In this document: positions 5,768-25,277 of the stretch, piece after piece
How positions within the stretch are numbered: position 1 is the stretch's first letter
How the letters are laid out: each line of letters starts with the position of its first letter
Notes under the pieces: model-generated
What the model was told of the DNA's origin: nothing
The model's input: only the letters and a program-made list of their open reading frames with translations
Databases searched by the model: none
Source: an uncultured beta proteobacterium
GTDB taxonomy: Bacteria > Pseudomonadota > Gammaproteobacteria > Burkholderiales > Burkholderiaceae_C
DNA: 64,000 bases
Assembly: GCA_903905735.1 (NCBI GenBank)
Contig: CAIVHU010000128.1
Coordinates: 1-64,000, forward strand
Reading direction: 5' to 3'
Position numbers and translations under genes: made by a program

Positions 5768-8338
5768 CTATAGCTTTGATGCTTTGGCGCGAATGTGTGC
5801 CAGTGCCTCTTCCACCTGATCCACCAGGATCAGGCACAAATCGCCCTCGCCCAGCTTGTCCATCGCGGTATCAATCGCCAAGAACTCACCGGTGATTTCC
5901 TGCACGGTCTGGGCGCGGGCGCTGCCGCTTAAGCCCTCACGCAGCAGGGCAATCACCTCGCCGTCAGAGCGGCCACGCTGGCACTGGTCCTGATACAGCA
6001 CCACGTCATCAAAGGCCTGACCCAGGATTTGCGTCTGCTGGCGGATGTCGTCATCGCGCCGGTCACCCGCGCCGCTGATCACCACCGAGCGGCGCTTGGC
6101 CGGCATGGCTTGCACCGCTTGCACCAGTGCCAGCATCGCATCTGGGTTGTGGCCATAGTCCGCAATGACGGTGGCACCCCGGTAGTCAAACAGGTTGAAG
6201 CGGCCCAGGGCATTGTCATTGTCGTTCTCAAAACTGGCCAGCCCGGTTGCAATCACCTCCCATTCCAGACCCAGGCCCCACACAGCAGCTACTGCCGCCA
6301 TGACGTTTTCCACCTGAAAACCAATGGTGCCATCGCGGGTGATCGGCACCTCTGACAAAGCCAGCTTGTGTTGGACGTCGCCCTGAACCGCCACCAGGCA
6401 AGCATCCTCAACGTAAATGCCCCGGCTTCCTTGCAACAGATGCGTGGTCATGACGGGATGGTTCCGGTCGGCCGCAAAGAAGGTGACCGAGCCGGTGCAG
6501 TGTCTGGCCATGCCGGCGACGATGGGGTCGGCAGCGTTAAGCACAGCCACGCCGTGGGCGGCAATGTTCTGCACGATCACCCGCTTGAGCACTGCTAGAT
6601 CTTCCACCGTGGTGATGTAGTTCAGGCCCAGATGATCGCCACTGCCCACGTTGGTCACCACCGCCACATCACAGCGGTCAAACGCCAACCCCTCGCGCAA
6701 CATGCCACCACGCGCCGTTTCAAGCACGGCGGCGTCCACGTCCGGGTGGCCCAGCACATTGCGTGCGCTTTTGGGGCCGCTGCAATCACCGGTGTCGATG
6801 CGTTGACCGGCCACAAAAACACCATCGGTACTGGTCATGCCCACGCGCAGTCCGCTTTGCGTCAACAGATGGGAAATCAGGCGCACCGTAGTGGTCTTGC
6901 CGTTGGTGCCTGTCACGGCCACCACGGGAATGCGGCCATTGCCACGTTCGCCAAACATGTGGTTGATCACCGCCTCACCCACAGGGCGACCCTTGCCAAA
7001 TGATGGCGACACATGCATGCGCAGACCGGGTGCGGCGTTGACTTCAACCACGCCGCCACCCCTTTCTTCAAGCGTGTGGTGAATGCTGTCGGTCATCATG
7101 TCAACGCCACAAATGTCCAGCCCAATCATTTGGGCGGCCGCCACGGCACGGGCGGCCACTTCGGGGTGGACATCATCGGTGACATCGGTGGCGCTGCCAC
7201 CCGTTGACAGGTTGGCATTGCGCCGCAACAAAACGCGCTGGCCATTGGCGGGCACTGAGTCTGTCTCCAGGCCCTGCCCGGCCAGGCAAGCCAGGGCAAT
7301 ATCGTCAAAGCGGATTTTGGTCAGCGACGTGGCGTGGCCGGAGCCACGGCGCGGGTCGCTGTTGACACGATGCACCAATTCGCGAACGCTCAAGGTGCCA
7401 TCACCGACGACATGGGGCGCATCGCGGCGGGCGGCCGCCACCAGTTTGTCACCCACCACCAGCAAGCGAAAGTCATGTCCCGACAAGAACTTTTCAACCA
7501 GAATCTTGCTGCTGAACTCCGAGGCCGTGTGATAGGCTGCCAGTAGTTGGTCTCTGGAAGTGATGTTGACGGTCACCCCTTTACCCTGATTGCCGTCTTT
7601 GGGTTTCACAACCACCGGCAGATCAATCTCCAGGGCGGCCGCCCAGGCATCTTCGGCACTGTCCACCTCGCGTCCGTGCGGCACTGGCACACCAGCAGCG
7701 GCAAGCAGTTTTTTTGTGAGCTGTTTGTCCTGCGCAATGGCCTCAGCAATGGCGCTGGTGGCATCGATCTCGGCCGCCTGAATGCGGCGCTGCCGGCTGC
7801 CCCATCCAAACATGACCATGCTGCCCTCTGTCATGCGCCGATACGGAATATTGCGTGCCACCGCCGCATCCACAATGGTGCCGGTGCTCGGGCCCAGGCG
7901 CACGTCTTCATCGAGGTCGCGCAACTGAGTCAGCGCCAGCTGCAAATCAAAAGGGATGCCGTCCACCGCCGCTTGGCACAGCGTATGCGCCAGTTCAAGC
8001 GCCAGACGCCCAACCGGCTCTTGCGTGTATTCCACGATCACCTGAAAAGTGCCAGCCTCCAGCGTCGGTGTGGTACGTCGGAACGTCACCGGACACCCTG
8101 CCTGCGCCTGAAGACCCAGCGCCGTCACACCCAGCACATGTGCCAGACTGACAGGTCCGTCCTGTCCACCGGGCTGCACCACGCCAATAGCCGGAAAACA
8201 GACATGCAGTCGTGCATCGAATGCGGGATCGGCGCCCACGTCACACTCGGCAGCGGTGCAGGTCACCACCACCTCGATCGCGGTTCGCTGGGTCCAAAGG
8301 TTGGGGCCACGAAGGGCTCTGATGCGGGATAACTTCAT
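5768..8338 (-). CDS. cphA: cyanophycin synthetase, full length
   Basis: CphA polymerises cyanophycin (poly-Asp with Arg side chains) by alternating ATP-dependent addition of Asp and Arg. The 856-residue protein has the three family domains: an N domain (1-160), an ATP-grasp domain (about 165-470, with VVVKPKDGNQGKGVTV and an EVNAAPGLRMH metal/ATP end motif), and a Mur-ligase-like domain with intact P-loop VTGTNGKTTTVRL (Lys481) and the C-terminal segment DYGHNPDAM...SGAGDRRDDDI. It follows cphA' with only 3 bases between them, so they are almost certainly co-transcribed. No cyanophycinase (cphB) gene is present in the window. Confidence 0.96.
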   Translation of the reverse strand: MKLSRIRALRGPNLWTQRTAIEVVVTCTAAECDVGADPAFDARLHVCFPAIGVVQPGGQDGPVSLAHVLGVTALGLQAQAGCPVTFRRTTPTLEAGTFQVIVEYTQEPVGRLALELAHTLCQAAVDGIPFDLQLALTQLRDLDEDVRLGPSTGTIVDAAVARNIPYRRMTEGSMVMFGWGSRQRRIQAAEIDATSAIAEAIAQDKQLTKKLLAAAGVPVPHGREVDSAEDAWAAALEIDLPVVVKPKDGNQGKGVTVNITSRDQLLAAYHTASEFSSKILVEKFLSGHDFRLLVVGDKLVAAARRDAPHVVGDGTLSVRELVHRVNSDPRRGSGHATSLTKIRFDDIALACLAGQGLETDSVPANGQRVLLRRNANLSTGGSATDVTDDVHPEVAARAVAAAQMIGLDICGVDMMTDSIHHTLEERGGGVVEVNAAPGLRMHVSPSFGKGRPVGEAVINHMFGERGNGRIPVVAVTGTNGKTTTVRLISHLLTQSGLRVGMTSTDGVFVAGQRIDTGDCSGPKSARNVLGHPDVDAAVLETARGGMLREGLAFDRCDVAVVTNVGSGDHLGLNYITTVEDLAVLKRVIVQNIAAHGVAVLNAADPIVAGMARHCTGSVTFFAADRNHPVMTTHLLQGSRGIYVEDACLVAVQGDVQHKLALSEVPITRDGTIGFQVENVMAAVAAVWGLGLEWEVIATGLASFENDNDNALGRFNLFDYRGATVIADYGHNPDAMLALVQAVQAMPAKRRSVVISGAGDRRDDDIRQQTQILGQAFDDVVLYQDQCQRGRSDGEVIALLREGLSGSARAQTVQEITGEFLAIDTAMDKLGEGDLCLILVDQVEEALAHIRAKASKL

Positions 8339-8341
8339 GGC

Positions 8342-10522
8342 TCAATGCTTTTGTGAAGAGGTCAACTCAAAGGTGCGCAGGCCCGCACTTATCAATTCCG
8401 GGCTGATGTCCAGTGCCCAAGCGGCCGCCACCGCCGCCAACGCCGTGTCTGGACGCGCTCGGGCATCTGGCGAAAGCGTATTGAGGGCAATTTGGGCCAC
8501 AGCCGCCTGGCCTTGGGCCAACACCATGTGCGCTGCCTGTGCAAAGACCGCCCGTCCGCCAACCGCGCGGTGCACCACCATCGCCGACGAATCCGGGTTG
8601 CGGCCGTAAAAGATCACCTTGCCGTCACACAAGGATGCCAGGTCGGCCACCTGCGCATCATCGGCGTTGAGAACGGCTGTGCCGTGCGGCAGGATCACAT
8701 CGACCTGGGTTCGAACCACGTTGAAAAGTTTGTCCAGATCGTCAATATAAAACTCGGCCACACTTTCCAGACCGCTGACATCTGTGACCACACCCACGGT
8801 GCACTTGTCGTAGGCCAGGCCTTCACTCAGAATCCGGCGGCTGCTGTGCTCAAAAACGGCCACTTCCAGCGAGCGGTTGATCAGCAGGTTCTGCCCGGCA
8901 TCCCAGCCCGTGCTGTCCTTGGCACTCACCTGGCGCGCACCGAGGTAAAAACCGTCCTGGCATGCCAGACCCACTTTCTGGCCCTTGATGTGCAGCAACC
9001 AGGTAATCAGCCGTGCGATAGACGTGGTGCTGCGACTGCCAGTGACACCCACCAAGGGGATCCGCCCTACCCCGCCACGTGCCTGCTCCAGCCCAAAAAG
9101 GTGCGAAATGATGGCCTTGCCAATCGCGCGTGTGTGGCCGCTGGCGGGTTTCAGATGGGCCAGCAAGCCCGGGCTGGCGTTGACCTCAATCACTGCGCCG
9201 CGTTGCTCTGACAAGGGCCGGGAAGCATCTTCCATCACCATATCGACACCCGCAATATCGAGTCCAACCACCCGCGCCGCCAAGCTGGCCATGGCCGCCA
9301 CGCTAGGGTGCACGTCGTCAGTGATATCAAAGGCCACGTTGCCATTGCGCTGGATCAAAACCTGTTGACTCTGTTTGGGGACCGAATAGGCGGTAAGGCC
9401 CTGGCGCTCCAACTCAAGAATGATCTCGGCAGACTCATGCGGTTTGACTTCGTTGAGCGGGAAGTCCTCGGTGGTGCCACGACGCGGATCAGCATTGAGT
9501 TGCTGGTTCACCAGAGAAATAATGTTGGATTCACCATCGCCCGTGACCCATGCCGTCTCGCCGCGCGCGACAGCCACCACACGCCGCCCCACGACCAGCA
9601 GCCGGTGCTCGTTGCCGGGAATGAACTGTTCAACGATGACGCTGCTTTCGCCTTTGCGCAATGCCAGCGCGAACGCGGTCTCGACATCTTTTTGAGTGTT
9701 CAGGTTCAGCGACACGCCCCGGCCATGGTTACCGTTGTAGGGCTTGACGGCCACCGGCAAACCCACTGCCTGAGCCGCCTCCCAGGCCTCCTCGGCTGTT
9801 TTGACCACCTGCCCATGCGGCACCGGCACACCGCTCGATTGCAGCAGTGACTTGGTGAGGTCCTTGTCACAGGCAATTTCTTCGGCAATGGCCGAGGTCT
9901 GGTCAGTCTCGGCGGTCCAGATCCGGCGCTGGCTGGCCCCGTGACCGAGCTGAACCAGGTTGCCGTCGGTGAGTCGCAGATTTGGAATGCCACGATCGGT
10001 GGCCGCTTCCACGATATGTGCCGTGCTTGGGCCCATGCAGTGCGTATCGACCAGTTCACTGAGTTGTGCAATCGCTGCCGTCAAGTCAAAAGCCATGTCA
10101 TGGATGGCCGCATGCACCACGTCCAGCCCGACCGCCAGCGCAGCCCGGCCCACCTGCTCTTGCCGGGTGCGAAACGCCATTTTGTAAACACCGCGCACCG
10201 AGGTTTGCCGGGTTTTGCCAAAACCGGTGCGCATGCCAGCCATGTTTTGCAGTTCCAGCACCACATGCTCCAGGATGTGGCCCGCCCATGTGCCCTCGCG
10301 TAGCCGCTCCAGAAACCCGCCGGGTTCACCAATACCGCAGCGATGCACCGCCAGGCCGGGCAGCATGGCGGTCAAACGCTCATAAAATCCGGGCAAGGTA
10401 TTGGAGGGAAAATCTTCCAGGTCGCCAATGTCAACCCAAACTTCAATGACCGGACGGTAGGTCCAGATGTTGGGGCCGCGCAGATGGGACACGCGCAGCA
10501 ATTGAATGGTCTTCGTTGTCAT
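8342..10522 (-). CDS. cphA': cyanophycin synthetase paralog with degenerate Mur-ligase half (CphA'/CphA2-like)
   Basis: This 726-residue paralog is collinear with the neighbouring cphA through the N domain and a well-conserved ATP-grasp domain (VAVKPYNGNHGRGVSLNL, EVNASPGLLAHLKP). In the Mur-like half the P-loop reads GVTGSRSTTSIARL (Gly495 onward), so the second Gly and the catalytic Lys of GTNGKTT are gone. The protein stops about 130 residues early, lacking the third Mur-ligase domain that contains DYGHNPD in CphA. Cyanobacterial CphA2 enzymes are similarly reduced and polymerise beta-Asp-Arg dipeptides with one ATP site; whether that applies here is inference. It is the first gene of the pair and is divergent from the exporter gene. 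Confidence 0.9.
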   Translation of the reverse strand: MTTKTIQLLRVSHLRGPNIWTYRPVIEVWVDIGDLEDFPSNTLPGFYERLTAMLPGLAVHRCGIGEPGGFLERLREGTWAGHILEHVVLELQNMAGMRTGFGKTRQTSVRGVYKMAFRTRQEQVGRAALAVGLDVVHAAIHDMAFDLTAAIAQLSELVDTHCMGPSTAHIVEAATDRGIPNLRLTDGNLVQLGHGASQRRIWTAETDQTSAIAEEIACDKDLTKSLLQSSGVPVPHGQVVKTAEEAWEAAQAVGLPVAVKPYNGNHGRGVSLNLNTQKDVETAFALALRKGESSVIVEQFIPGNEHRLLVVGRRVVAVARGETAWVTGDGESNIISLVNQQLNADPRRGTTEDFPLNEVKPHESAEIILELERQGLTAYSVPKQSQQVLIQRNGNVAFDITDDVHPSVAAMASLAARVVGLDIAGVDMVMEDASRPLSEQRGAVIEVNASPGLLAHLKPASGHTRAIGKAIISHLFGLEQARGGVGRIPLVGVTGSRSTTSIARLITWLLHIKGQKVGLACQDGFYLGARQVSAKDSTGWDAGQNLLINRSLEVAVFEHSSRRILSEGLAYDKCTVGVVTDVSGLESVAEFYIDDLDKLFNVVRTQVDVILPHGTAVLNADDAQVADLASLCDGKVIFYGRNPDSSAMVVHRAVGGRAVFAQAAHMVLAQGQAAVAQIALNTLSPDARARPDTALAAVAAAWALDISPELISAGLRTFELTSSQKH

Positions 10523-10718
10523 GAATTTTTTAAGGTTGTCAATTAAGCGCCAAGCATGAATTTTCAGTTCATTTACGCACGTGTAACCCCAAAACGGCTG
10601 GAAAAATCATAATTATTTGTAAGCACCAGGTTCACGCGTACTATCCTCAAACATTTTGCCAATCGCAGCCAGCCTTCGTTGAGCCTGCGGTCACCTACTG
10701 CCAAAAACCCCGGCCTTT
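10523..10718. promoter_or_regulatory. divergent promoter region of the cyanophycin locus
   Basis: These 196 bases separate cphA' (minus) from the ABC exporter (plus). They are clearly AT-richer than the flanking genes, with runs such as AATCATAATTATTTGTAA near 10606, as expected of promoters. I could not assign a -35/-10 pair or a recognisable operator with confidence. Confidence 0.5.
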
Positions 10719-13001
10719 ATGACTCAAGACGCTGCCGTTCCTGAACCCGTATTGCAAGATATTCCAGCCGACCTGCGCCCGGAAGTCACGTCACAGCTTG
10801 ACAAAAATGAGAGCGTATTGGCCGCGCTGGTGTTTGATCTGGACAACCAGTTGCACTTCGTCAGAGGCATGGTGCTGGTCACCGAGCACCGTGTATTGAC
10901 CCAGGCACCCGATGCCAGCTGGCAGGTTTGGTGCTATCAGCCGGGGCTGGTCATGCATTTGCACGACCACGCTGGCGTGGGTCATCTCGACTTGCTGGAC
11001 AGCCAGGGCCGATTGGCCCACTGGAGCTTCACGCTGGCGCACAACCTGCAGGCGATTCGCCTGGTGGATCAGTTTCAAATCCATCAGACCAGCTTTGTGA
11101 CCGGCCAGCCGCCCATGCTGCCCGAAGGCCGACGCTGCCCGAGTTGCAAAGCCCCGCTTGAGCCCGATCAGGACGAATGTCCGATCTGCACTAAAGTCAT
11201 CCACACACCGCCTTCCACCTGGACGCTGTTCAGGCTCTGGCGCTTTGCCAAACCTTATAGCAAGCAACTGTTTGCGGGTCTGATGTTGACGCTGCTTGGC
11301 ACTGCCGCCAGCCTGGTGCCGCCGTATCTGTCCATGCCCTTGATGGACGAGGTGCTGATTCCGTTCCAGAACGGCCAGCACATCGACCCGATGCTGGTTG
11401 TCAAGTATCTGGGCGGTCTGTTTGGTGCCGCCGTGTTGGCCTGGGGCTTGTCCTGGGCCAAGACCTACATCCTGGCGCTGGTATCGGAGCGCATTGGCGC
11501 GGATTTGCGCACCACTACGTATGAACACCTGCTGCGCATGTCGCTGGAATATTTTGGTGGCAAACGCACGGGTGACCTGATGTCACGCATTGGCAGCGAA
11601 AGCGACCGCATCTGTGTGTTTTTGTCGCTGCACCTGTTGGACTTTGCCTCTGACATCCTGATGCTGATCATGACCGCCGTGATTCTGGTGTCGATCAATC
11701 CGATGCTGGCTCTGGTGACGCTGGTGCCACTGCCGTTCATTGTGTGGATGATCCGCTCGGTGCGGTTCCGGTTGCAAACCGGGTTTGAGAAGATTGACCG
11801 CGTCTGGTCGGCGGTGACCAGCGTGCTAGCCGACACCATTCCGGGTGTGCGCGTGGTCAAGGCATTTGCCCAGGAAGACCGCGAAGCCGCGCGTTTTCGC
11901 GAGGCCAACAAGCAAAACCTGATCGTCAATGACCGTATCAACAAGATCTGGTCAGTGTTTGCGCCCAGCATCTCACTGATGACAGAACTGGGACTACTGG
12001 TGGTCTGGGGCTTTGGCATCTGGCTGGTGTCCAAGTCCCAAATCACCGTGGGTGTGCTGGTGGCGTTTGTCTCCTACATCAGCCGTTTCTACGGGCGACT
12101 GGATTCGATGAGCCGCATCGTCTCGGTGACTGAAAAGTCGGCCTCGGCGGCCAAGCGCATATTTGACATTCTGGACCATGTCTCCAGCGTGCCGGAACCC
12201 ACCCAACCAGTCAAACTGGCGCATGTGCAGGGCCGCATTGAACTCAGCCACGTGAGCTTTCGCTATGGCAATCGCGAGGTCAACAAGGACATCAGTCTGA
12301 CGATCAACCCCGGTGAAATGATTGGTCTGGTGGGCCACAGCGGCTCGGGCAAAAGCACGCTGGTCAACCTGATCTGCCGTTTTTACGATGTATCTGAGGG
12401 TTCGATCAAGATAGATGGTGTTGACGTGCGCTCGCTGCCGGTGGCTGACTACCGCCGCCATATCGGCTTGGTGCTGCAAGAGCCGTTCCTGTTTTTCGGC
12501 ACGATCGCCGAGAACATCGCCTACGGTAAACCACATGCCACGCGAGCCGAGATCATTGCCGCTGCGCGGGCGGCCCATGCGCACGAGTTCATCCTGCGCC
12601 TGGCGCAGGGTTACGACTCGATGGTCGGTGAGCGCGGTCAGGGGTTGTCTGGCGGTGAACGCCAGCGCATCTCGATCGCGCGCGCCCTGCTGATTGACCC
12701 GCGCATCCTGATTCTGGACGAAGCCACCTCGTCGGTCGACTCCGAGACCGAGAAGGAGATCCAGAATGCGCTGGAGAACCTGGTCAAAGGCCGCACCACC
12801 ATCGCCATCGCCCACCGCCTGTCCACCCTGCACCGCGCTGACCGGCTGGTGGTGATGGACCGTGGCCAGATCGTCGAAGTGGGCACGCACGATGTGCTGA
12901 TGGCCGCCGAAGGCGCCTACTACAACCTGTATCAGGCCCAGGCACGCAACATGGATGTGGACATGGACGATGCCAAAGACCGCCGGAGTGATGACGAATG
13001 A
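10719..13001 (+). CDS. ABC exporter with N-terminal extra domain and zinc ribbon, cyanophycin-linked
   Basis: A 760-residue half-transporter. Residues 170-500 form the six-helix exporter domain and 520-740 the ATPase, with Walker A GHSGSGKST near 540, signature LSGGERQR near 644, Walker B ILILDEATS near 663, and the H-loop AIAHRLST. Unlike ordinary MsbA-type exporters it has about 165 extra N-terminal residues: a beta-rich domain (about 25-125, resembling bacterial PH/GRAM folds by eye) and a four-cysteine zinc ribbon, C140-x2-C143 and C154-x2-C157. The stop overlaps the DUF1854 start (ATGA). I recall this exporter plus DUF1854 as a recurrent companion of cphA in Burkholderiales. Its substrate is unknown. 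Confidence 0.88.
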   Translation: MTQDAAVPEPVLQDIPADLRPEVTSQLDKNESVLAALVFDLDNQLHFVRGMVLVTEHRVLTQAPDASWQVWCYQPGLVMHLHDHAGVGHLDLLDSQGRLAHWSFTLAHNLQAIRLVDQFQIHQTSFVTGQPPMLPEGRRCPSCKAPLEPDQDECPICTKVIHTPPSTWTLFRLWRFAKPYSKQLFAGLMLTLLGTAASLVPPYLSMPLMDEVLIPFQNGQHIDPMLVVKYLGGLFGAAVLAWGLSWAKTYILALVSERIGADLRTTTYEHLLRMSLEYFGGKRTGDLMSRIGSESDRICVFLSLHLLDFASDILMLIMTAVILVSINPMLALVTLVPLPFIVWMIRSVRFRLQTGFEKIDRVWSAVTSVLADTIPGVRVVKAFAQEDREAARFREANKQNLIVNDRINKIWSVFAPSISLMTELGLLVVWGFGIWLVSKSQITVGVLVAFVSYISRFYGRLDSMSRIVSVTEKSASAAKRIFDILDHVSSVPEPTQPVKLAHVQGRIELSHVSFRYGNREVNKDISLTINPGEMIGLVGHSGSGKSTLVNLICRFYDVSEGSIKIDGVDVRSLPVADYRRHIGLVLQEPFLFFGTIAENIAYGKPHATRAEIIAAARAAHAHEFILRLAQGYDSMVGERGQGLSGGERQRISIARALLIDPRILILDEATSSVDSETEKEIQNALENLVKGRTTIAIAHRLSTLHRADRLVVMDRGQIVEVGTHDVLMAAEGAYYNLYQAQARNMDVDMDDAKDRRSDDE

Positions 13002-13486
13002 ACACCCCCACAGCCATGACCACGGCCGCTTTTCAGCTCACGCGCAACCCGTTTGGCCGCCTTGTGCTTACCACGCCGCAAGGCGACGTGGTCGAAGACG
13101 TGGTGCCGGTTCGTGCCTTTCCGATCCAGTCACCCGAAGACGGCATCTCGCTGATCCACACCGACGGCCATGAAGTGGCCTGGGTGGACAACCTGGCCGC
13201 CCTGCCCGAACCAGCGCAAAGCTTGATCCGGGAAGATCTGCAAGGTCGCGAGTTCATGCCGACCATTTTGAGCATCGAGGGCGTCACCAGCTTTTCAACG
13301 CCCTGCACCTGGCGCGTCAAGACCGACCGGGGCGACACCAGCTTTGTGCTGCGCGGTGACGAAGACATCCGCCGTGTTGGGCCGACGATTTTGCTGGTGA
13401 CCGACTCGCACGGAATCCAGTTTTTGATTCGTGATGCCGCCACCTTGAGCCGGGAAAGCCGCAAGATTCTGGACCGATTTTTGTAG
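12998..13486 (+). CDS. DUF1854 protein, cyanophycin-linked
   Basis: A 162-residue soluble protein of the DUF1854 family. The ATG at 12998 overlaps the exporter stop codon by four bases, so translation is probably coupled; a second in-frame ATG at 13016 (MTTAAFQLTRN) is an alternative. The sequence is mostly predicted beta strand (RLVLTTPQGDVVEDVVPVRA, GISLIHTDGHEVAWVD, CTWRVKTDRGDTSFVL), with a C-terminal helix SRESRKILDRFL, no signal peptide and no membrane segment. The tight coupling suggests it works with, or regulates, the exporter. Molecular function is unknown. Confidence 0.85.
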   Translation: MNTPTAMTTAAFQLTRNPFGRLVLTTPQGDVVEDVVPVRAFPIQSPEDGISLIHTDGHEVAWVDNLAALPEPAQSLIREDLQGREFMPTILSIEGVTSFSTPCTWRVKTDRGDTSFVLRGDEDIRRVGPTILLVTDSHGIQFLIRDAATLSRESRKILDRFL

Positions 13487-13509
13487 ACATCCGACAGTCT
13501 CCAAGTGCC

Positions 13510-14127
13510 ATGGTCATCAACTTCACCCTGCTCATGCTGGCTCTAGTAGCCGCACTGCTCATGCGCCCTTGGCGCATGATGGCGGGTGCTACCCGACTCA
13601 CGCCGGTACTGGCTGCGCTCACCCTGATTCCCTGGTTGTGGGCCATGCCGAGCCTGCACAAGATGCCGCTGCAGTTGCAGGGCTCTGGCGCGTGCCTGCT
13701 GGTGCTCATGCTGGGCTGGCCGCTGGCCGTGCCGGTGTTGTGTCTGGTGGGGGTGATCGCCGCGCTGATCTCGCCCATGCCGTGGGAGACCGCGCTGGAC
13801 CTGACCGTCTGGCTCGGGCTGGTGCCCGCCACGCTGGCGCTGGGGTTGGGTCTGGCGGTGCGACGATGGATCGGGCCGCACATGTTCGTCTACATCCTGG
13901 GCCGCGCCTTCATTGGCACGGCCTTGTGCGTGTTTGCCGCGAGTTTGCTGGGGCAGTTGGCTGGCCACACCATGCCTGGCATCGACAGCGGCCTGAGTGT
14001 TGTGGCCCACTGGCTGGCCGCTTGGGGCGATGCGTTCATGACCGGCATGTTCACCTCGATGATGGTCGCCTTCAAGCCGGAGTGGCTGGCCACCTGGTCA
14101 GATCGTCTGTATCTGAAGAAATCCTGA
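13510..14127 (+). CDS. polytopic membrane protein, ECF-permease-like (COG3235 type)
   Basis: A 205-residue, very hydrophobic protein with about six predicted membrane helices and few charges except at the C-terminus (SDRLYLKKS). The acidic/aromatic segment MTGMFTSMMVAFKPEWLATW near the end and the overall size resemble the COG3235 family of CbiM-like energy-coupling-factor permeases. It lies 23 bases after the DUF1854 gene on the same strand and may belong to the same transcript. No ECF ATPase or T component is nearby, so a transport role is only inferred. Confidence 0.65.
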   Translation: MVINFTLLMLALVAALLMRPWRMMAGATRLTPVLAALTLIPWLWAMPSLHKMPLQLQGSGACLLVLMLGWPLAVPVLCLVGVIAALISPMPWETALDLTVWLGLVPATLALGLGLAVRRWIGPHMFVYILGRAFIGTALCVFAASLLGQLAGHTMPGIDSGLSVVAHWLAAWGDAFMTGMFTSMMVAFKPEWLATWSDRLYLKKS

Positions 14128-19934: not shown

Positions 19935-21263
19935 ATGGCAAATACACACAGTGCTGATCACACAAGCACAGCCCCGGCGAATCCGCCGAATTCGGCCCTC
20001 TCACCGGTCTCCCACAGCGAACGCGTTTTCAGCTGGCACGACCACACCTCGTTGTGGTTCAGCATGGGCGTCGGGCTGTTGGTGATCCAGGTGGGTGCCT
20101 ATCTGGTGCCTGCGGTAGGCAGCCGTGATGCGGCGATTGCCATCGTGTTGGGCTCACTGATCGGGTCCGGTCTGCTGGCCTGGACGGCGCGGCTGGGTTG
20201 CGAGAGCGGCCTGTCCAGTGCCGGATTGATGCACGCCACCTTTGGCAGCAGCTTTGCCCGCTTGCCCGTGCTCTTGAACATGGCGCAACTGATTGGCTGG
20301 ACCACGTTTGAGCTGGTCATCATGCGCGACGGCACCGCCGCCATTGGCAAACAGTCATTCGGCCTGAGTCTGGACGGCATGGGCGGGATGATCGCCACGA
20401 CGCTGTTGTGGGGCGCGGTCCTGCTGCTGTTGCTGGCCGGCTCCATGACCCGGCTGGTACGCAAGCTGATCGCCCGCATCGGCCTGCCGCTGGTGGTGGC
20501 ATCGCTGGTGTGGCTGACCTGGCAATTTGGCAGTCTGATGCACACCCAGGGCCTGGCTGCTTTCTGGGCACGCCATGGGGACGGCAGCATGGGCATGCTG
20601 TCGGCCATGGATCTGGTGATCGCCATGCCGGTGTCGTGGTTGCCGCTGGTGGCCGACTATGCGCGCTACGGTAAAAAGGGTCGCAGCGCACTGAGCGGAA
20701 CCTGGCTGGGTTATGCGCTGGCCAATATCTGGTGTTATGCGCTGGGTGTGCTGGTCGTCAGCGTGGTGCCGGCTGGTTCTGACTTGGTGGGTGCCTTGCT
20801 GCTGGCGCAAGGCGGCTTGCTGGCTTTGAGCCTGATTCTGGTCGATGAAATCGACAATGCCTATGGCGATGTCTACTCCAGCGCGGTCTCTGGCCACAGC
20901 ATCCTGCCAACCTGGAGCGTTCGCAAATGGGGCCTGCTACTGGCAGTCCTGTGCATGGCCCTGGCCATGGTGCTGCCGATGCACAGTCTGGAGCCCTTCC
21001 TGTTGCTGCTGAGTTCGGTGTTTGTGCCACTGTATGGCGTGATTCTGGGGCGGTTGGCGGTGGGCTCGCCCGCCCTGAGCGTATCTGACAAAAAAGTGGA
21101 CTGGATGGCCGCTGGCCTATGGCTGCTGGGCATTGCTTGCTATCATTTCTTGACCAACTATGCGCCGCAATGGGGCTCTGCCCTGCCGACGCTGGCACTG
21201 ACCTTCACGCTGGCATGGCTAACTCGCCCGGCCGCCGCTGCCCTGCGCGAGGTGCGTGCATGA
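19935..21263 (+). CDS. cytX: putative hydroxymethylpyrimidine transporter CytX
   Basis: A 442-residue member of the cytosine/purine permease (NCS1, CodB-like) family with about twelve hydrophobic helices and the N-terminal signature FSWHDHTSLWFSMGVGLLVIQ. CytX permeases are recognised by their TPP-riboswitch and thi gene context and are thought to import the thiamin pyrimidine moiety HMP. Here the gene lies right behind a THI element and overlaps thiO (ATGA at 21260), which supports that reading. GGAG lies upstream of the ATG. Confidence 0.9.
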   Translation: MANTHSADHTSTAPANPPNSALSPVSHSERVFSWHDHTSLWFSMGVGLLVIQVGAYLVPAVGSRDAAIAIVLGSLIGSGLLAWTARLGCESGLSSAGLMHATFGSSFARLPVLLNMAQLIGWTTFELVIMRDGTAAIGKQSFGLSLDGMGGMIATTLLWGAVLLLLLAGSMTRLVRKLIARIGLPLVVASLVWLTWQFGSLMHTQGLAAFWARHGDGSMGMLSAMDLVIAMPVSWLPLVADYARYGKKGRSALSGTWLGYALANIWCYALGVLVVSVVPAGSDLVGALLLAQGGLLALSLILVDEIDNAYGDVYSSAVSGHSILPTWSVRKWGLLLAVLCMALAMVLPMHSLEPFLLLLSSVFVPLYGVILGRLAVGSPALSVSDKKVDWMAAGLWLLGIACYHFLTNYAPQWGSALPTLALTFTLAWLTRPAAAALREVRA

Positions 21264-22336
21264 ACATCGTCATTTTGGGTGCCGGCCTGATGGGTCGGCT
21301 GCTGGCGTGCTCGCTGGCGCGGGCCGGCCACACACTGAGCGTTTTTGAAGAGCGCGAAGCCGCTTCCCGTGGCGCTGCTGCTTTTGCCGCTGCCGCCATG
21401 CTGGCCCCGTTGGCGGAGTCGGCGATTGCCGAAGACGGGGTGGTGCGTCTGGGCCAACACGGCCTGGAGCGCTGGCCAGAGCTGATTGGCGCGCTCGATG
21501 CGCCCGTCTTTTTCCAGCGCGAAGGCACGCTGGTGGTCTGGCACCGCCAGGACGCACCAGATGCCCAGCGCTTCAGCCAGTTGCTGGCCGCCACCGGCCA
21601 GCGGCTACCCGACCTGCCCCGAGCACAGTCGCTGGACGCTGCCGCGCTGGACGCACTGGAACCCGGCATGGGCGCACGTTTTGCCCAGGGCCTGCTGCTA
21701 CCCGGTGAAGGCCAGTTGGACAACCACCAGCTGATGGACGCGCTGCTGGCGCAAATGCAGCGCCTGGGTGTGGCGCTGCACTGGAGCTGTCCGCGCAGCC
21801 CGGAGGATTTCAACCCCGGACAGACCGGTGAGCCCGACTGGCTGCTGGACTGCCGGGGCCTGGGCGCGCAGGCGCAATGGCCCGAGCTGCGCGGTGTGCG
21901 TGGCGAAATCGTCACACTGCATGCGCCCAACGTGACCTTGTCGCGCCCGACCCGGCTGATCCACCCGCGTTACCCGATCTACATCGCACCCAAGCTGGAG
22001 GGCTATTTTTTGGTCGGTGCCACCGAGATCGAATCCGACGACACGTCGCCCATGAGCCTGCGCTCGGCACTCGAATTGCTCAGCGCCGCCTACACCGTGG
22101 ACAGCGGGTTTGGCGAGGCGCGCATCATCGAGCTGGTAGCGCAATGCCGCCCGGCCCTGCCCGATAACCAGCCCGCCGTGCGCTGGCTGGGCGAGCGCAC
22201 ACTGCAAGTCAACGGGCTGTACCGCCACGGCTATTTGATCTCGCCCGCCATGCACGACATCGTGCTGGAACTGGTGAAGACCGGCACATCGCCGCTGGCT
22301 GACAAGCTGGGCCTGGCGCTGGAGGCTGCGCCATGA
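21260..22336 (+). CDS. thiO: glycine oxidase ThiO
   Basis: ThiO oxidises glycine to the dehydroglycine used in thiazole synthesis. The 358-residue FAD protein begins MNIVILGAGLMGRLLACSLA (dinucleotide-binding loop) and shows EEREAASRGAAAFAAAAMLAP, GQLDNHQLMDALLAQ, and the DAO-family late segment YPIYIAPKLEGYFLVGATEIES with GLYRHGYLISPAM. It is translationally coupled on both sides (ATGA overlaps with cytX and thiS). A DAO enzyme in place of ThiH indicates the aerobic route. Confidence 0.93.
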   Translation: MNIVILGAGLMGRLLACSLARAGHTLSVFEEREAASRGAAAFAAAAMLAPLAESAIAEDGVVRLGQHGLERWPELIGALDAPVFFQREGTLVVWHRQDAPDAQRFSQLLAATGQRLPDLPRAQSLDAAALDALEPGMGARFAQGLLLPGEGQLDNHQLMDALLAQMQRLGVALHWSCPRSPEDFNPGQTGEPDWLLDCRGLGAQAQWPELRGVRGEIVTLHAPNVTLSRPTRLIHPRYPIYIAPKLEGYFLVGATEIESDDTSPMSLRSALELLSAAYTVDSGFGEARIIELVAQCRPALPDNQPAVRWLGERTLQVNGLYRHGYLISPAMHDIVLELVKTGTSPLADKLGLALEAAP

Positions 22337-22530
22337 AGGTGCTGATCAACCAGACCCCTTGCGAACTGGCGGCAGATGCGACGTTGGCCCAGGCGGTGGC
22401 CGCCAGCCAGATCCCGCCGCCTTTTGCTGCTGCGCTGAACCGGCAGTTTGTGCCCAAAACGCAATATGCGCAGACCCCGCTGGCGGAGGGCGACCAGATC
22501 GAACTGATTGCGCCGTTGGTGGGTGGTTAG
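22333..22530 (+). CDS. thiS: sulfur carrier protein ThiS
   Basis: A 65-residue ubiquitin-like protein ending in the required Gly-Gly (IAPLVGG), which is adenylated and converted to thiocarboxylate to donate sulfur to the thiazole ring. The start overlaps the thiO stop. The N-terminus MKVLINQTPCELAADATLAQ follows the beta-grasp pattern. Confidence 0.95.
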   Translation: MKVLINQTPCELAADATLAQAVAASQIPPPFAAALNRQFVPKTQYAQTPLAEGDQIELIAPLVGG

Positions 22531-22610
22531 CCAGGCTGCCCTGGCGGGCCACCACCCGCCATCCCAACCGCTGATCCAGACAAGCCTGAATTTTCAACAC
22601 CTTCAAGACC

Positions 22611-23432
22611 ATGAACACGCCTCCCGTCTTCCCGCAAACCGCGCCTCTTGACCCGCTGGTCTTGTATGGTGAAACCTTCACCAGCCGTTTGCTGCTGGGC
22701 ACCTCACGCTATCCTTCTCCTAGCGTCTTGCAAGCGGCGGTGCAACTTGCCAAACCCGCCATGCTGACCGCCTCGCTACGCCGACAAAACCTGGTCAACC
22801 CTGAAACAAGCAACCGTTTCTGGCAGCTGCTGGACGACCTCAAGGTGCCAGTGCTGCCCAACACCGCCGGTTGCCACAGCGTGTCGGAGCTAATCACCAC
22901 CGCGCACATGGCGCGCGAGGTGTTTGCCACGGACTGGATCAAGTTGGAGCTGATCGGCGACGACTACACGCTGCAGCCCGACACGCTGAACATGGTTGAT
23001 GCCGCCCGCCAGCTGATCCACGACGGCTTCAAGGTGCTGCCCTACTGCACCGACGACCTGGTGCTGTGCCAGCGTCTGGTCGATGTCGGTTGCCAGGCGC
23101 TCATGCCCTGGGCCGCGCCGATCGGCACCGGCAAAGGCCCGATCAACCCTTACGCCATGAAAACCCTGCGCGCGCGCCTGAAGGTACCGATGATTGTGGA
23201 TGCGGGCCTGGGCCTGCCATCGCACGCGGCGCAGGTGATGGAATGGGGCTTTGACGGCGTGCTGCTCAACACCGCCGTGGCGCTGGCCAACGACCCGATC
23301 CGCATGGCCGGGGCCTTTGCCGCCGCCACCCAGGCCGGGCGCGATGCATTTCTGGCAGGCACCATGACCGAGAAAGACGCCGCTGAACCCAGCACGCCGG
23401 TGCTGGGCACACCGTTTTGGCACGAGGCATGA
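22611..23432 (+). CDS. thiG: thiazole synthase ThiG
   Basis: ThiG forms the thiazole phosphate from DXP, dehydroglycine and ThiS-thiocarboxylate. The 273-residue TIM barrel shows LLLGTSRYPSPSVLQ, PNTAGCHSVSE, DWIKLELIGD, PWAAPIGTGKGP, DAGLGLPSHAAQVMEWGFDGVLLNTA. The DXP Schiff-base lysine normally lies in the WIKLE strand and is present. The stop overlaps the thiE start (ATGA at 23429). Confidence 0.96.
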   Translation: MNTPPVFPQTAPLDPLVLYGETFTSRLLLGTSRYPSPSVLQAAVQLAKPAMLTASLRRQNLVNPETSNRFWQLLDDLKVPVLPNTAGCHSVSELITTAHMAREVFATDWIKLELIGDDYTLQPDTLNMVDAARQLIHDGFKVLPYCTDDLVLCQRLVDVGCQALMPWAAPIGTGKGPINPYAMKTLRARLKVPMIVDAGLGLPSHAAQVMEWGFDGVLLNTAVALANDPIRMAGAFAAATQAGRDAFLAGTMTEKDAAEPSTPVLGTPFWHEA

Positions 23433-24382
23433 GCACCCCGATCAACATGGCTCAAGCCATCGTCAGCGCCCATGCTGCGCTGGCACTTCAGGCCTTACCA
23501 AATAATATGTCTTTTATGGCTTCAGCCCATATATCCAAGGGGCTGGCAGCTATTAAAAATGATGCGGCCACAGGGGTTTTCCAAGCTGTCAAAGCAGCCT
23601 GCCTGGCGCTGGATTTCATTGAAACGGACACCGACTGCATCGCCCACGCCTGGCATGCGCAGACGCTGCGCACCGGTCAGTTTGACGCACAAACGTGGCC
23701 CACCGAGCCGTCAGACTTTGGCCTGCGCCCCGGGCCGGGCACCGATGCGTTTGCCCCCTGTCCGCGTCAACTTGGCCTCTACGCCGTATTGCCCGATGCC
23801 GCGTGGGTGGGCCGCATGGCGCGCGCCGGGGTGCCGACGGTGCAATTGCGCTTCAAGTCCGCTGGCCCCGAAGCGGTGGCGCGCGAAGTGAAGGCCGCTG
23901 TGCAGGCCGTTCAGGGCACCCCGGCGCTGCTGTTCATCAACGACCATTGGCAAGCCGCCATCGCCGCCGAAGCTTACGGCGTGCACTTGGGTCAGGAAGA
24001 CCTGCAAACCCTGCAAGCCACCGACCTGGCCGCCATCCGCGCAGCCGGTTTGCGCCTGGGCGTGAGCAGCCACGGTTATGCCGAGATGCTGCGCGCCGCC
24101 GCCGTGTTGCCCAGCTACATCGCGCTGGGGGCGGTGTTTGCCACCACGCTCAAACGCATGGCCACGCCGCCGCAGGGTGTGGCGCGACTCACGGTGTATG
24201 CCCAGCTGTTGCGCCATCTGCCAACGGTGGCGATTGGCGGGATTGATCTGACGAACCTGGACAGCGTGCTGGCGAGCGGCGTGGGCTCAGTGGGTGTGGT
24301 GCGGGCGCTGGTGGCTGCGGACAAGCCCGAGGACATGGCCCAGACATTGATTCAAAAAATGCCTATAGCCCTCGTCAAATAA
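23429..24382 (+). CDS. thiE: thiamin phosphate synthase-like protein, N-terminally extended and divergent
   Basis: A 317-residue protein whose last 205 residues are ThiE-like: VPTVQLRFKS, LFINDHWQAA, GVHLGQEDLQ, GAVFATTLKRMATPPQG, VAIGGIDLTNLDSVL. Two usual active-site residues differ: QLREK reads QLRFK and the NDR motif reads NDH. About 110 residues precede the barrel with no motif I recognise. A palindromic repeat lies inside this extension and another supplies the last codons and stop. A canonical ThiE is encoded at 25475, so this copy may be specialised or weak. It is coupled to thiG by ATGA. Confidence 0.8.
   Translation: MSTPINMAQAIVSAHAALALQALPNNMSFMASAHISKGLAAIKNDAATGVFQAVKAACLALDFIETDTDCIAHAWHAQTLRTGQFDAQTWPTEPSDFGLRPGPGTDAFAPCPRQLGLYAVLPDAAWVGRMARAGVPTVQLRFKSAGPEAVAREVKAAVQAVQGTPALLFINDHWQAAIAAEAYGVHLGQEDLQTLQATDLAAIRAAGLRLGVSSHGYAEMLRAAAVLPSYIALGAVFATTLKRMATPPQGVARLTVYAQLLRHLPTVAIGGIDLTNLDSVLASGVGSVGVVRALVAADKPEDMAQTLIQKMPIALVK
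23517..23559. repeat. AGCCC palindromic repeat inside thiE
   Basis: TTCAGCCCATAT...AAGGGGCTGGCAGCTATTAA is a degenerate copy of the dispersed palindrome, read in frame as part of the N-terminal extension (residues around MASAHISKGLAAIKND). Confidence 0.6.
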
Positions 24383-24412
24383 GCGCTAACAGCTATCTAA
24401 AATATAGCGCCC
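24364..24412. repeat. palindromic repeat at the thiE 3' end
   Basis: TATAGCCCTCGTCAAATAAG followed by CGCTAACAGCTATC is a degenerate copy that encodes the last thiE codons and the TAA, then fills the gap to the convergent thiD gene. Confidence 0.55.
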
Positions 24413-24431
24413 GGCAGGAATGCAGCAAGCA

Positions 24432-25277
24432 TCACCCAGCCTGGCGAATGAGGTGCATCGGCTTCGGCGCAAAGCTGTGGTTGAGCGGGCCGCTGCACTG
24501 CCCGGTTTTCACGCAGGCCCCAGCTTGCAGCGCACCGCGCACGTAGGCGCGGGCCTGCTGCACAGCATCTGGGAGCCGCAGCCCCAGCGCCAGGTGCGCG
24601 GCAATCGCGCTGGACAAGGTGCAGCCGGTGCCATGCGTGTTGGCGCTGTCGATGCGCGTGGCCTGCATCCACAGCGGTTCCGCATCGGCGGTCAGCAACA
24701 AATCCACCACTTCATCGCCGGGCAAATGGCCGCCTTTGAGCAACACGGCGCGCGCGCCCTGCGCGAGCAGCGTTTGCGCGGCCTGCAACATGTCCTGCAC
24801 CGTTTTTAAAGGCTGGCCGACCAGCAGAGCGGCTTCATCGAGATTGGGCGTGATGACCGCCGCGCGTGGAAACAGTTCGGTCACCAGCACGGTAATCGCT
24901 TCATCGGTGATGAGTTTGGCACCGCTGGTGGCCACCATCACCGGGTCAAACACCACATGAGGCAGACTGTGCCGCGCCACCGCCTGCGCCACCGTGCGCA
25001 CAATCTCGGGCGAGTGCAACATGCCGATCTTGACCGCGTCCACGCCAATGTCTTCCACCACTGCGTCGATCTGATCGCGCAGCATGTCGGGCGGCACACC
25101 GTGGATGGCGCGCACGCCGCAGGTGTTTTGCGCCGTGAGCGCGGTAATCGCCGTCATGCCGTAGCAGCCCAGTGCGGCAATTGTCTTCAAATCGGCCTGG
25201 ATGCCGGCACCGCCACCGCTGTCGGAACCAGCGATGGAGAGCACTCTGGAATAGTGGTGAGTCAGTTCAATAGTCAT
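24432..25277 (-). CDS. thiD: hydroxymethylpyrimidine / phosphomethylpyrimidine kinase
   Basis: ThiD phosphorylates HMP and HMP-P to HMP-PP. The 281-residue ribokinase-fold protein has SIAGSDSGGGAGIQADLKT, the substrate loop AITALTAQNT, VFDPVMVATSGA, TPNLDEAALL, VLLKGGH, and the anion-hole NTHGTGCTLSSAIAA. It is the last gene of the minus-strand thiM-thiE-thiD group and starts at the ATG giving MTIELTHHYSRV. It converges with the extended thiE. Confidence 0.96.
   Translation of the reverse strand: MTIELTHHYSRVLSIAGSDSGGGAGIQADLKTIAALGCYGMTAITALTAQNTCGVRAIHGVPPDMLRDQIDAVVEDIGVDAVKIGMLHSPEIVRTVAQAVARHSLPHVVFDPVMVATSGAKLITDEAITVLVTELFPRAAVITPNLDEAALLVGQPLKTVQDMLQAAQTLLAQGARAVLLKGGHLPGDEVVDLLLTADAEPLWMQATRIDSANTHGTGCTLSSAIAAHLALGLRLPDAVQQARAYVRGALQAGACVKTGQCSGPLNHSFAPKPMHLIRQAG

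Follow-up and report, generated by a model that had tools for sequence, protein, structure and literature searches.

A cyanophycin synthetase gene pair with apparently divided active sites beside a divergent ABC exporter and DUF1854 gene in Burkholderiales

The window analyzed here is a 64,000-base stretch of contig CAIVHU010000128.1 (positions 1 to 64,000, forward strand) from an uncultured beta proteobacterium of the Burkholderiales, and our subject is a locus within it at which two genes of the cyanophycin synthetase type, cphA and cphA', diverge from the genes for an ATP-binding cassette (ABC) exporter and a DUF1854 protein. The locus had been noticed in a preliminary description made from the DNA letters alone; its gene order, divergence, 4-base overlap and 23-base spacing are as described there, and cphA, cphA', the exporter gene and the DUF1854 gene are confirmed at the following coordinates (aa, amino acids).

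5768-8338, minus strand: cphA, 856 aa; predicted subunit for Asp addition (G) and Arg addition (M), without the N-domain peptidase site
8342-10522, minus strand: cphA', 726 aa; predicted N-domain subunit, 3 bases from cphA
10265-10339, minus strand: Cx19HxxEH metallopeptidase-like motif of CphA', C62 to H86 of the translation, aligned to SuCphA1 C59, H79, E82 and H83
10523-10718: divergent region of 196 bases between cphA' and the exporter gene
10719-13001, plus strand: half-size ABC exporter of the CphA-associated subfamily, 760 aa; PH-like domain, zinc ribbon, membrane domain and ATPase
10719-11108, plus strand: PH-like domain, exporter residues 1-130
11136-11189, plus strand: CxxC-x10-CxxC zinc ribbon, exporter residues 140-157 (PF13248, expectation value (E) 2.4e-4, below the gathering score)
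12998-13486, plus strand: DUF1854 partner protein, 162 aa; 4-base overlap with the exporter gene
13510-14127, plus strand: membrane protein, 205 aa; 23 bases past the DUF1854 gene

CphA is a member of TIGR02068 at 962.7 bits (cut-off 850); CphA' scores 705.4 bits against this model, which leaves it outside, and 993.9 bits against NF010623 (cut-off 877). The two tandem cyanophycin synthetases of the preliminary description are both present as genes, but the second is better called a partner with a degenerate catalytic half. The exporter belongs to NF052233, "cyanophycin metabolism-associated ABC transporter" (1382.3 bits, cut-off 880), and also matches PF00664 and PF00005; the DUF1854 protein, whose closest named relatives are from Rhodoferax, belongs to NF052234 (223.4 bits, cut-off 150) and scores 160.8 bits against PF08909. 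Since the names of these two NCBIfam equivalog models already say cyanophycin-associated, the association itself is catalogued and not new; the names record no function, which agrees with the preliminary description, where no assigned function was known. The exporter shares the ABC fold of the half-size exporters MsbA and ChvA, but at 454.7 bits to MsbA TIGR02203 and 310.9 bits to chvA TIGR01192 it lies below both cut-offs (602 and 585.4) and outside the MsbA family, and it differs from them in its extra PH-like domain, its zinc ribbon and invariant acidic residues in the third transmembrane helix.

In Synechocystis CphA1 the Cx19HxxEH site of the N domain cuts chains into primers, the G domain adds Asp and the M domain adds Arg (PMC9262961). 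The key residues reported for G are H267, R309, R323, N394, S396 and R458, and those for M are K499 and T500 (PMC9427784; SuCphA1 numbering is used for all synthetase residues). Mutations at D585/H586 inactivate M, and an H267 Ala mutant of SuCphA1 is in use as its G-inactive form (PMC9262961). The window's CphA retains K499, T500, D585, H586, R309, R323, N394, S396 and R458, has Gln at position 267, and has lost C59, E82 and H83. CphA' retains H57, C59, R70, H79, E82, H83 and H267; its R323 is replaced by Gly and R458 by Leu, S396 is deleted, the Asp-binding loop is shortened, and its Mur-like domain is degenerate and without the C-terminal part. Neither protein combines N, G and M sites in the manner of a complete CphA1.

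The same residues were followed in a named-locus set consisting of the best 80 of 567 DUF1854 loci from one alignment query (flanks of up to 9 kb, some contigs being short); these loci, all coming from one query, are mutually related. The alignments hold 73 of 74 CphA' and 70 of 71 CphA, one of each with 300 bits or less being omitted. H57, C59, H79, E82 and H83 are conserved in all 73 CphA'. All 73 likewise have Gly in place of R323 and a deletion of S396; Leu replaces R458 in 72 (with one gap), and K499 is retained in 1 of 72. The 70 CphA are all without C59 and have another residue in place of H83, position 267 is Gln in 69/69, and the Asp and M residues are conserved in every row with letters there (67-69). 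Most loci of the broader genome samples show the same split, an exception being two CphA that retain H267, and genomes from another order (G477, G692 and G595; G numbers denote sampled genomes and L numbers loci) repeat it with H267 lost from CphA' (Leu, Arg or a gap) and His or Gln in CphA. We treat CphA as G-competent because it retains the residues reported to bind Asp. The idea that Q267 marks an inactive G domain is weakened, since the exporter-linked CphA of L042, L046, L169 and L170 keep H267 and the cyanophycinase-linked L051 has Q267; among PDB matches, His stands at this position in each of five distinct CphA1 sequences. From these residue patterns it is very probable that the two synthetases are complementary, with the working sites divided between CphA and CphA', the latter being without three of the Asp-binding residues and, in most cases, without the Arg-adding domain. 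The CphA of G378, the sole match among 48 genomes of its order, is at most a candidate for the ancestral unsplit exporter-linked form, its contig being 11.8 kb long and the genome 8% contaminated.

CphA' is not a pseudogene, as purifying selection (omega 0.06-0.22 between the window and six Rhodoferax loci) and the strict conservation of its N site rule this out. Its N domain has the lowest nonsynonymous divergence (dN) of three parts in 6/6 comparisons, with an omega of 0.08-0.11 that is below that of G in 4/6, and its M remnant has the highest dN, with an omega of 0.13-0.22. In an unrooted tree of 45 rows, 18 CphA' form one group (100/100 support), and the cyanophycinase-linked enzymes together with SuCphA1 form a separate one (100/99).

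Such a division has an engineered precedent. An N+G-M- SuCphA1 protomer supports an N-G+M+ protomer, the identical division of sites between protomers to that of the natural pair, and the heterodimers equal the undivided form in activity with primer and are somewhat less active without it (PMC9262961). The same report finds about 17% of surveyed CphA1 to be without the N motif, shows that the SuCphA1 N domain cuts (beta-Asp-Arg)12 mainly to 8- and 4-mers, and points out that expression offers no means of setting the balance between cutting and ligation when a single polypeptide does both. The engineered heterodimers differ from the locus in being man-made mutants of one protein and not a natural gene pair, in which, by analogy, that balance can be set by expression. 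The primer-dependent Tatumella enzyme TmCphA1, presumably one of PDB 7lgn/7lgm, is like CphA in being without the Cx19HxxEH site, but the PDB-matched CphA1 sequences all keep H267 and TmCphA1 is not described as requiring a partner protein. Compared with the canonical storage system of a single CphA1 and a cyanophycinase, the locus has the same synthetase family and, overall, the same three active sites; it differs in that these are split over two proteins, the cyanophycinase is absent, and an exporter and a DUF1854 protein are present. A fixed split of synthetase sites was not found described in the literature searched.

We then asked how regularly these genes occur together, using an order sample of 200 Burkholderiales genomes searched for DUF1854, the exporter, CphA and cyanophycinase (for CphA and the exporter, scoring covered each genome's four best candidates, and the listed matches stop short of the weakest). 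DUF1854 and the exporter exceed their cut-offs in 68 genomes each, and the two sets of genomes are identical; among the matches listed, a CphA' occurs in 68/68 of them. This bears out the statement in the preliminary description that the pair is recurrent near cphA in this order. CphA exceeds its cut-off in 72 genomes, 65 of which carry an over-cut-off exporter (Fisher's p = 1.8e-40, uncorrected for phylogeny). The three exporter genomes without an over-cut-off CphA are G011, in which CphA lies in two overlapping frames (L034:10533-13350, apparently a frameshift or assembly error), and G030 and G174, which give just a CphA' match or, in addition to it, a fragment. A further genome, G122, is assigned to the exporter type because it has CphA' and an exporter that runs off the contig end (base 8438). 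The named loci hold an exporter in 77, CphA' in 74 and CphA in 71 of 80. In a class sample CphA is present in 6/7 genomes with the over-cut-off module; the seventh, G690, has exporter and DUF1854 with no CphA found in a 78% complete assembly, on a 3.6-kb contig. For the subfamily above curated cut-offs, then, the outcome that the preliminary description had named as fatal to it, exporter and DUF1854 found mostly in genomes without cphA, is not what is seen.

The arrangement is also regular. DUF1854 lies downstream of the exporter on the same strand within 250 bases in 66/68 genomes, the other two gaps being 297 and 478 bases as measured between profile matches, and cphA' is divergent from the exporter and less than 1 kb away in 59/68. 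Greater distances are found in G014 (1.4 kb), G034 (7.8 kb) and G115 (13 kb); in the last two (L040 and L041) the intervening 8 and 13 kb or so are taken up by other genes, and both halves are retained. In G063 and G111 cphA' and the exporter are on the same strand about 1 kb or less apart, in G172 and G195 they are on different contigs, and in G146 and G183 both are kept though unlinked (777 kb and 2.3 Mb apart).

The distribution of locus-linked cyanophycinase is the reverse. Cyanophycinase exceeds its cut-off in 13 of the 200 Burkholderiales genomes. All six genomes with an over-cut-off CphA and no exporter (G041, G086, G113, G127, G165 and G199), five of which belong to one genus, carry a strong cyanophycinase (233-251 bits). 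Five of these six have it no more than 2.2 kb from cphA, and in G086 the two genes are on separate contigs, cphA being far from the ends of its contig. Up to 50 kb from the 68 exporters, or to the contig end where that came first, no cyanophycinase match was found, nor was there one in the flanks of any of the 80 named loci. The nearest over-cut-off cyanophycinase to an exporter on a shared contig is about 185 kb away (G102); weaker matches occur in a few more exporter genomes, the nearest to a CphA pair being 58 kb away (G183, 71.9 bits). A phylum sample of 200 genomes contains nine with CphA: at E 1e-30 cyanophycinase is absent from the seven that have DUF1854, and G280 and G283, which have no DUF1854, carry it within 0.2 kb. 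Six of those seven genomes are also in the order sample, so that this sample is only partly independent. One genome, G056, has both locus types, 1.9 Mb apart; at its second locus (L051) each of the two paired CphA genes encodes Q267 and a degenerate N site, and cyanophycinase lies about 0.1 kb from the closer gene. The window's own genome (G000) has no TIGR02069 match at E 1e-3 and is not of the storage type; it has no IadA match and has an IaaA-family gene. At the cphA loci of these samples the exporter and a locus-linked cyanophycinase are mutually exclusive, which we did not find described in the literature searched. In three storage-type loci cphA is adjoined by a separate open reading frame (ORF) whose one match is to the M domain of CphA and in which the P-loop and DH motif are present (L056:9686-11443, L057:8803-10542 and L055:5566-7728); it is perhaps a free side-chain ligase.

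The Walker A Lys, Walker B Asp-Glu, signature motif and H-loop His are present in 112/112 aligned exporters (those of 650 residues or fewer being omitted), and the first Cys of the zinc ribbon in 104/112. D308 and D312 are invariant in 112/112 and absent from two homologues of CphA-less genomes. Exporter residues 1-130 have the seven-stranded barrel and C-terminal helix of a PH-like domain. The DUF1854 protein is predicted to be beta-rich and in two halves, and its structure model has no confident PDB match; the residues invariant in 34 diverse members include no His, Cys or Asp, though 46 closer members all share S98, D123 and H138. No paper containing "DUF1854" was found in the literature searched, and in titles and abstracts nothing was found that links the exporter to cphA or describes a split synthetase.

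The sequences show complementary residue losses, strict co-occurrence and the lack of cyanophycinase at exporter loci. Our preferred interpretation is that the locus specifies a cyanophycin-type synthetase of two subunits that is coupled to export, its product being exported and not stored; we think this a distinctly possible reading, if short of probable, and hold the export role of the ABC protein to be tentative to the same extent. CphA would supply the functional ligases for backbone (G) and side chains (M), and CphA', by analogy with Synechocystis CphA1, would supply the only intact N-domain site and cut nascent chains into primers and short chains, probably within a CphA/CphA' heteromer. 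With cutter and ligase on separate polypeptides the cell could favor short soluble chains over granules, and short chains might then be the product. The exporter would move beta-Asp-Arg-type chains across the inner membrane, perhaps with the DUF1854 protein as the cytoplasmic binding partner of its PH-like and zinc-ribbon head, and cyanophycinase may be missing because the product is delivered outside the cytoplasm and not stored and remobilised. A breakdown dipeptide, one of the cargoes put forward in the preliminary description, is made less probable by the lack of any cyanophycinase match in the window's own genome; a short chain is the better-fitting export product. That description's interpretation as a whole is partly supported, and the synthetase complementarity and missing cyanophycinase are additions of the present analysis. 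With more hesitation, we suggest that Burkholderiales (hundreds of them) and relatives may secrete cyanophycin-type oligomers through a two-subunit synthetase, an ABC exporter and a DUF1854 adaptor. If so, "cyanophycin" in these bacteria would be an exported molecule (an extracellular nitrogen currency, surface polymer or metal ligand) rather than a storage granule. The division of sites would offer control of chain length through the cutter:ligase ratio and could explain why Burkholderiales CphA expressed alone might make no polymer.

Such a reading would bear on an existing puzzle. Beta-proteobacteria are the largest CphA1 group (903 of 1,614 genomes), and a recognisable cyanophycinase occurs in 2.8% of beta-proteobacterial CphA1 genomes, which the authors called unanticipated (PMC10206079). 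Two CphA genes and no cyanophycinase are reported for Herminiimonas (PMC5670224) and for Sideroxydans (PMC5178258), and R. eutropha H16 has, according to a review, two CphA homologues and no cyanophycin observed in the wild type (PMC11362209). That exporter and DUF1854 are present at loci that have no cyanophycinase, and vice versa, would be a concrete explanation.

Several observations weigh against an export-coupled synthetase. H267 and R309 are also conserved in the 73 named CphA', so that their G domain is likely dead and not proven so, and M-domain motifs persist in CphA' of L038, L047, L048, L049 and L062 and in the fragment L054. Four exporter genomes (G021, G056, G068 and G102) carry an over-cut-off cyanophycinase elsewhere, and one 79% complete genome (G136) has a sub-cut-off CphA fragment with neither exporter nor cyanophycinase. 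G566 and G392 hold exporter-DUF1854 pairs below the cut-offs and no CphA (G392 has a 113-bit Mur-like match, far under the CphA cut-off); such pairs in genomes that lack cphA mean that the module is not dedicated to cyanophycin by nature and that it apparently predates, or extends beyond, its connection with cyanophycin. Descent from a single old clade of synthetases could account for part of the co-inheritance and exclusion. A Pfam scan of 17 window ORFs (75-25277) recognised no membrane-fusion or outer-membrane partner, and the locus does not have the make-up of a type I secretion system. Finally, no demonstration of the exporter's substrate, transport direction or product was found in the literature searched. 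The divergent pairs of genomes without CphA (L172:7480-10218 and L173:2606-5304) score 589 and 561 bits to NF052233, and G431 has a partial DUF1854 match with no CphA match.

The main rival, which we judge unlikely, is ordinary storage, in which normal granules are remobilised by an unrecognised hydrolase and the exporter is an accessory that, for example, relieves an excess of arginine or dipeptide. The polymer could be unchanged, since N, G and M sites are all preserved somewhere in the pair; Sharon and Schmeing propose that unknown cyanophycinases exist in genomes with cphA1 and no known one (PMC10206079), the Sideroxydans genome paper suggests storage or acid buffering (PMC5178258), and the IaaA-family gene of the window's own genome would also fit. 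The strict co-occurrence of exporter and DUF1854 at loci without cyanophycinase argues otherwise, as do the absence of any further widely conserved neighbor that might be such a hydrolase at the exporter loci surveyed and the reviewed absence of observed cyanophycin in wild-type R. eutropha (PMC11362209).

It is quite improbable that the exporter-linked synthetase clade makes a different exported product, a non-cyanophycin isopeptide or other peptide. The separate grouping of the cyanophycinase-linked enzymes with SuCphA1 and the uniform Q267 of named CphA might be taken this way, but the Asp-binding residues of CphA and the cyanophycin-cutting N site of CphA' are strictly conserved, and residue 267 does not follow the type of locus, as L051 and the four exporter-linked loci with H267 illustrate.

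That the module itself serves remobilisation, either with DUF1854 as the missing cyanophycinase or with an exporter that feeds periplasmic hydrolysis and re-uptake, is very improbable. In its favor, the distribution of DUF1854 is largely complementary to that of locus-linked cyanophycinase, but the DUF1854 structure model has no confident hydrolase match, the diverse members have no invariant His, Cys or Asp in spite of S98, D123 and H138 in the closer ones, and DUF1854 and exporter also occur in genomes without cphA. Mere neighborhood, with linkage by ancestry and no common function, is scarcely credible: most loci do have one ancestral arrangement, but the genes are co-retained when unlinked (G146, G183), the split recurs in another order, and exporter and DUF1854 differ by no genome in 200, with CphA' in every exporter genome.

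The membrane protein gene at 13510-14127, which the preliminary description counted into the locus, does not belong to the module. It is absent from all 40 other sampled-genome loci, 33 of which have an exporter, and is found in 4/80 named loci, all titled Rhodoferax and always with SerB. The protein has weak full-length similarity to CbiM (E 0.028) and, beside SerB in Rhodoferax, is possibly an orphan uptake component.

A promoter and terminator scan of the locus gave signals no higher than the shuffled expectation; the 196-base divergent region is little conserved and no sigma-70-like site was detected in it. A search for DUF1854 on plasmids gave no match; among the control genomes, that of Sulfolobus acidocaldarius gives a DUF1854 match that exceeds the Pfam cut-off. 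One locus (L079), on a contig titled as an Akkermansia muciniphila metagenome-assembled genome, bears a Burkholderiales-type cluster with a 68% identical DUF1854 protein, and is probably mis-binned. Elsewhere in the window, positions 19935-25277 hold consecutive genes for a cytosine/thiamine-type permease, a flavin adenine dinucleotide (FAD) oxidoreductase, ThiG, thiamine-phosphate synthase and phosphomethylpyrimidine kinase, an ordinary thiamine cluster.

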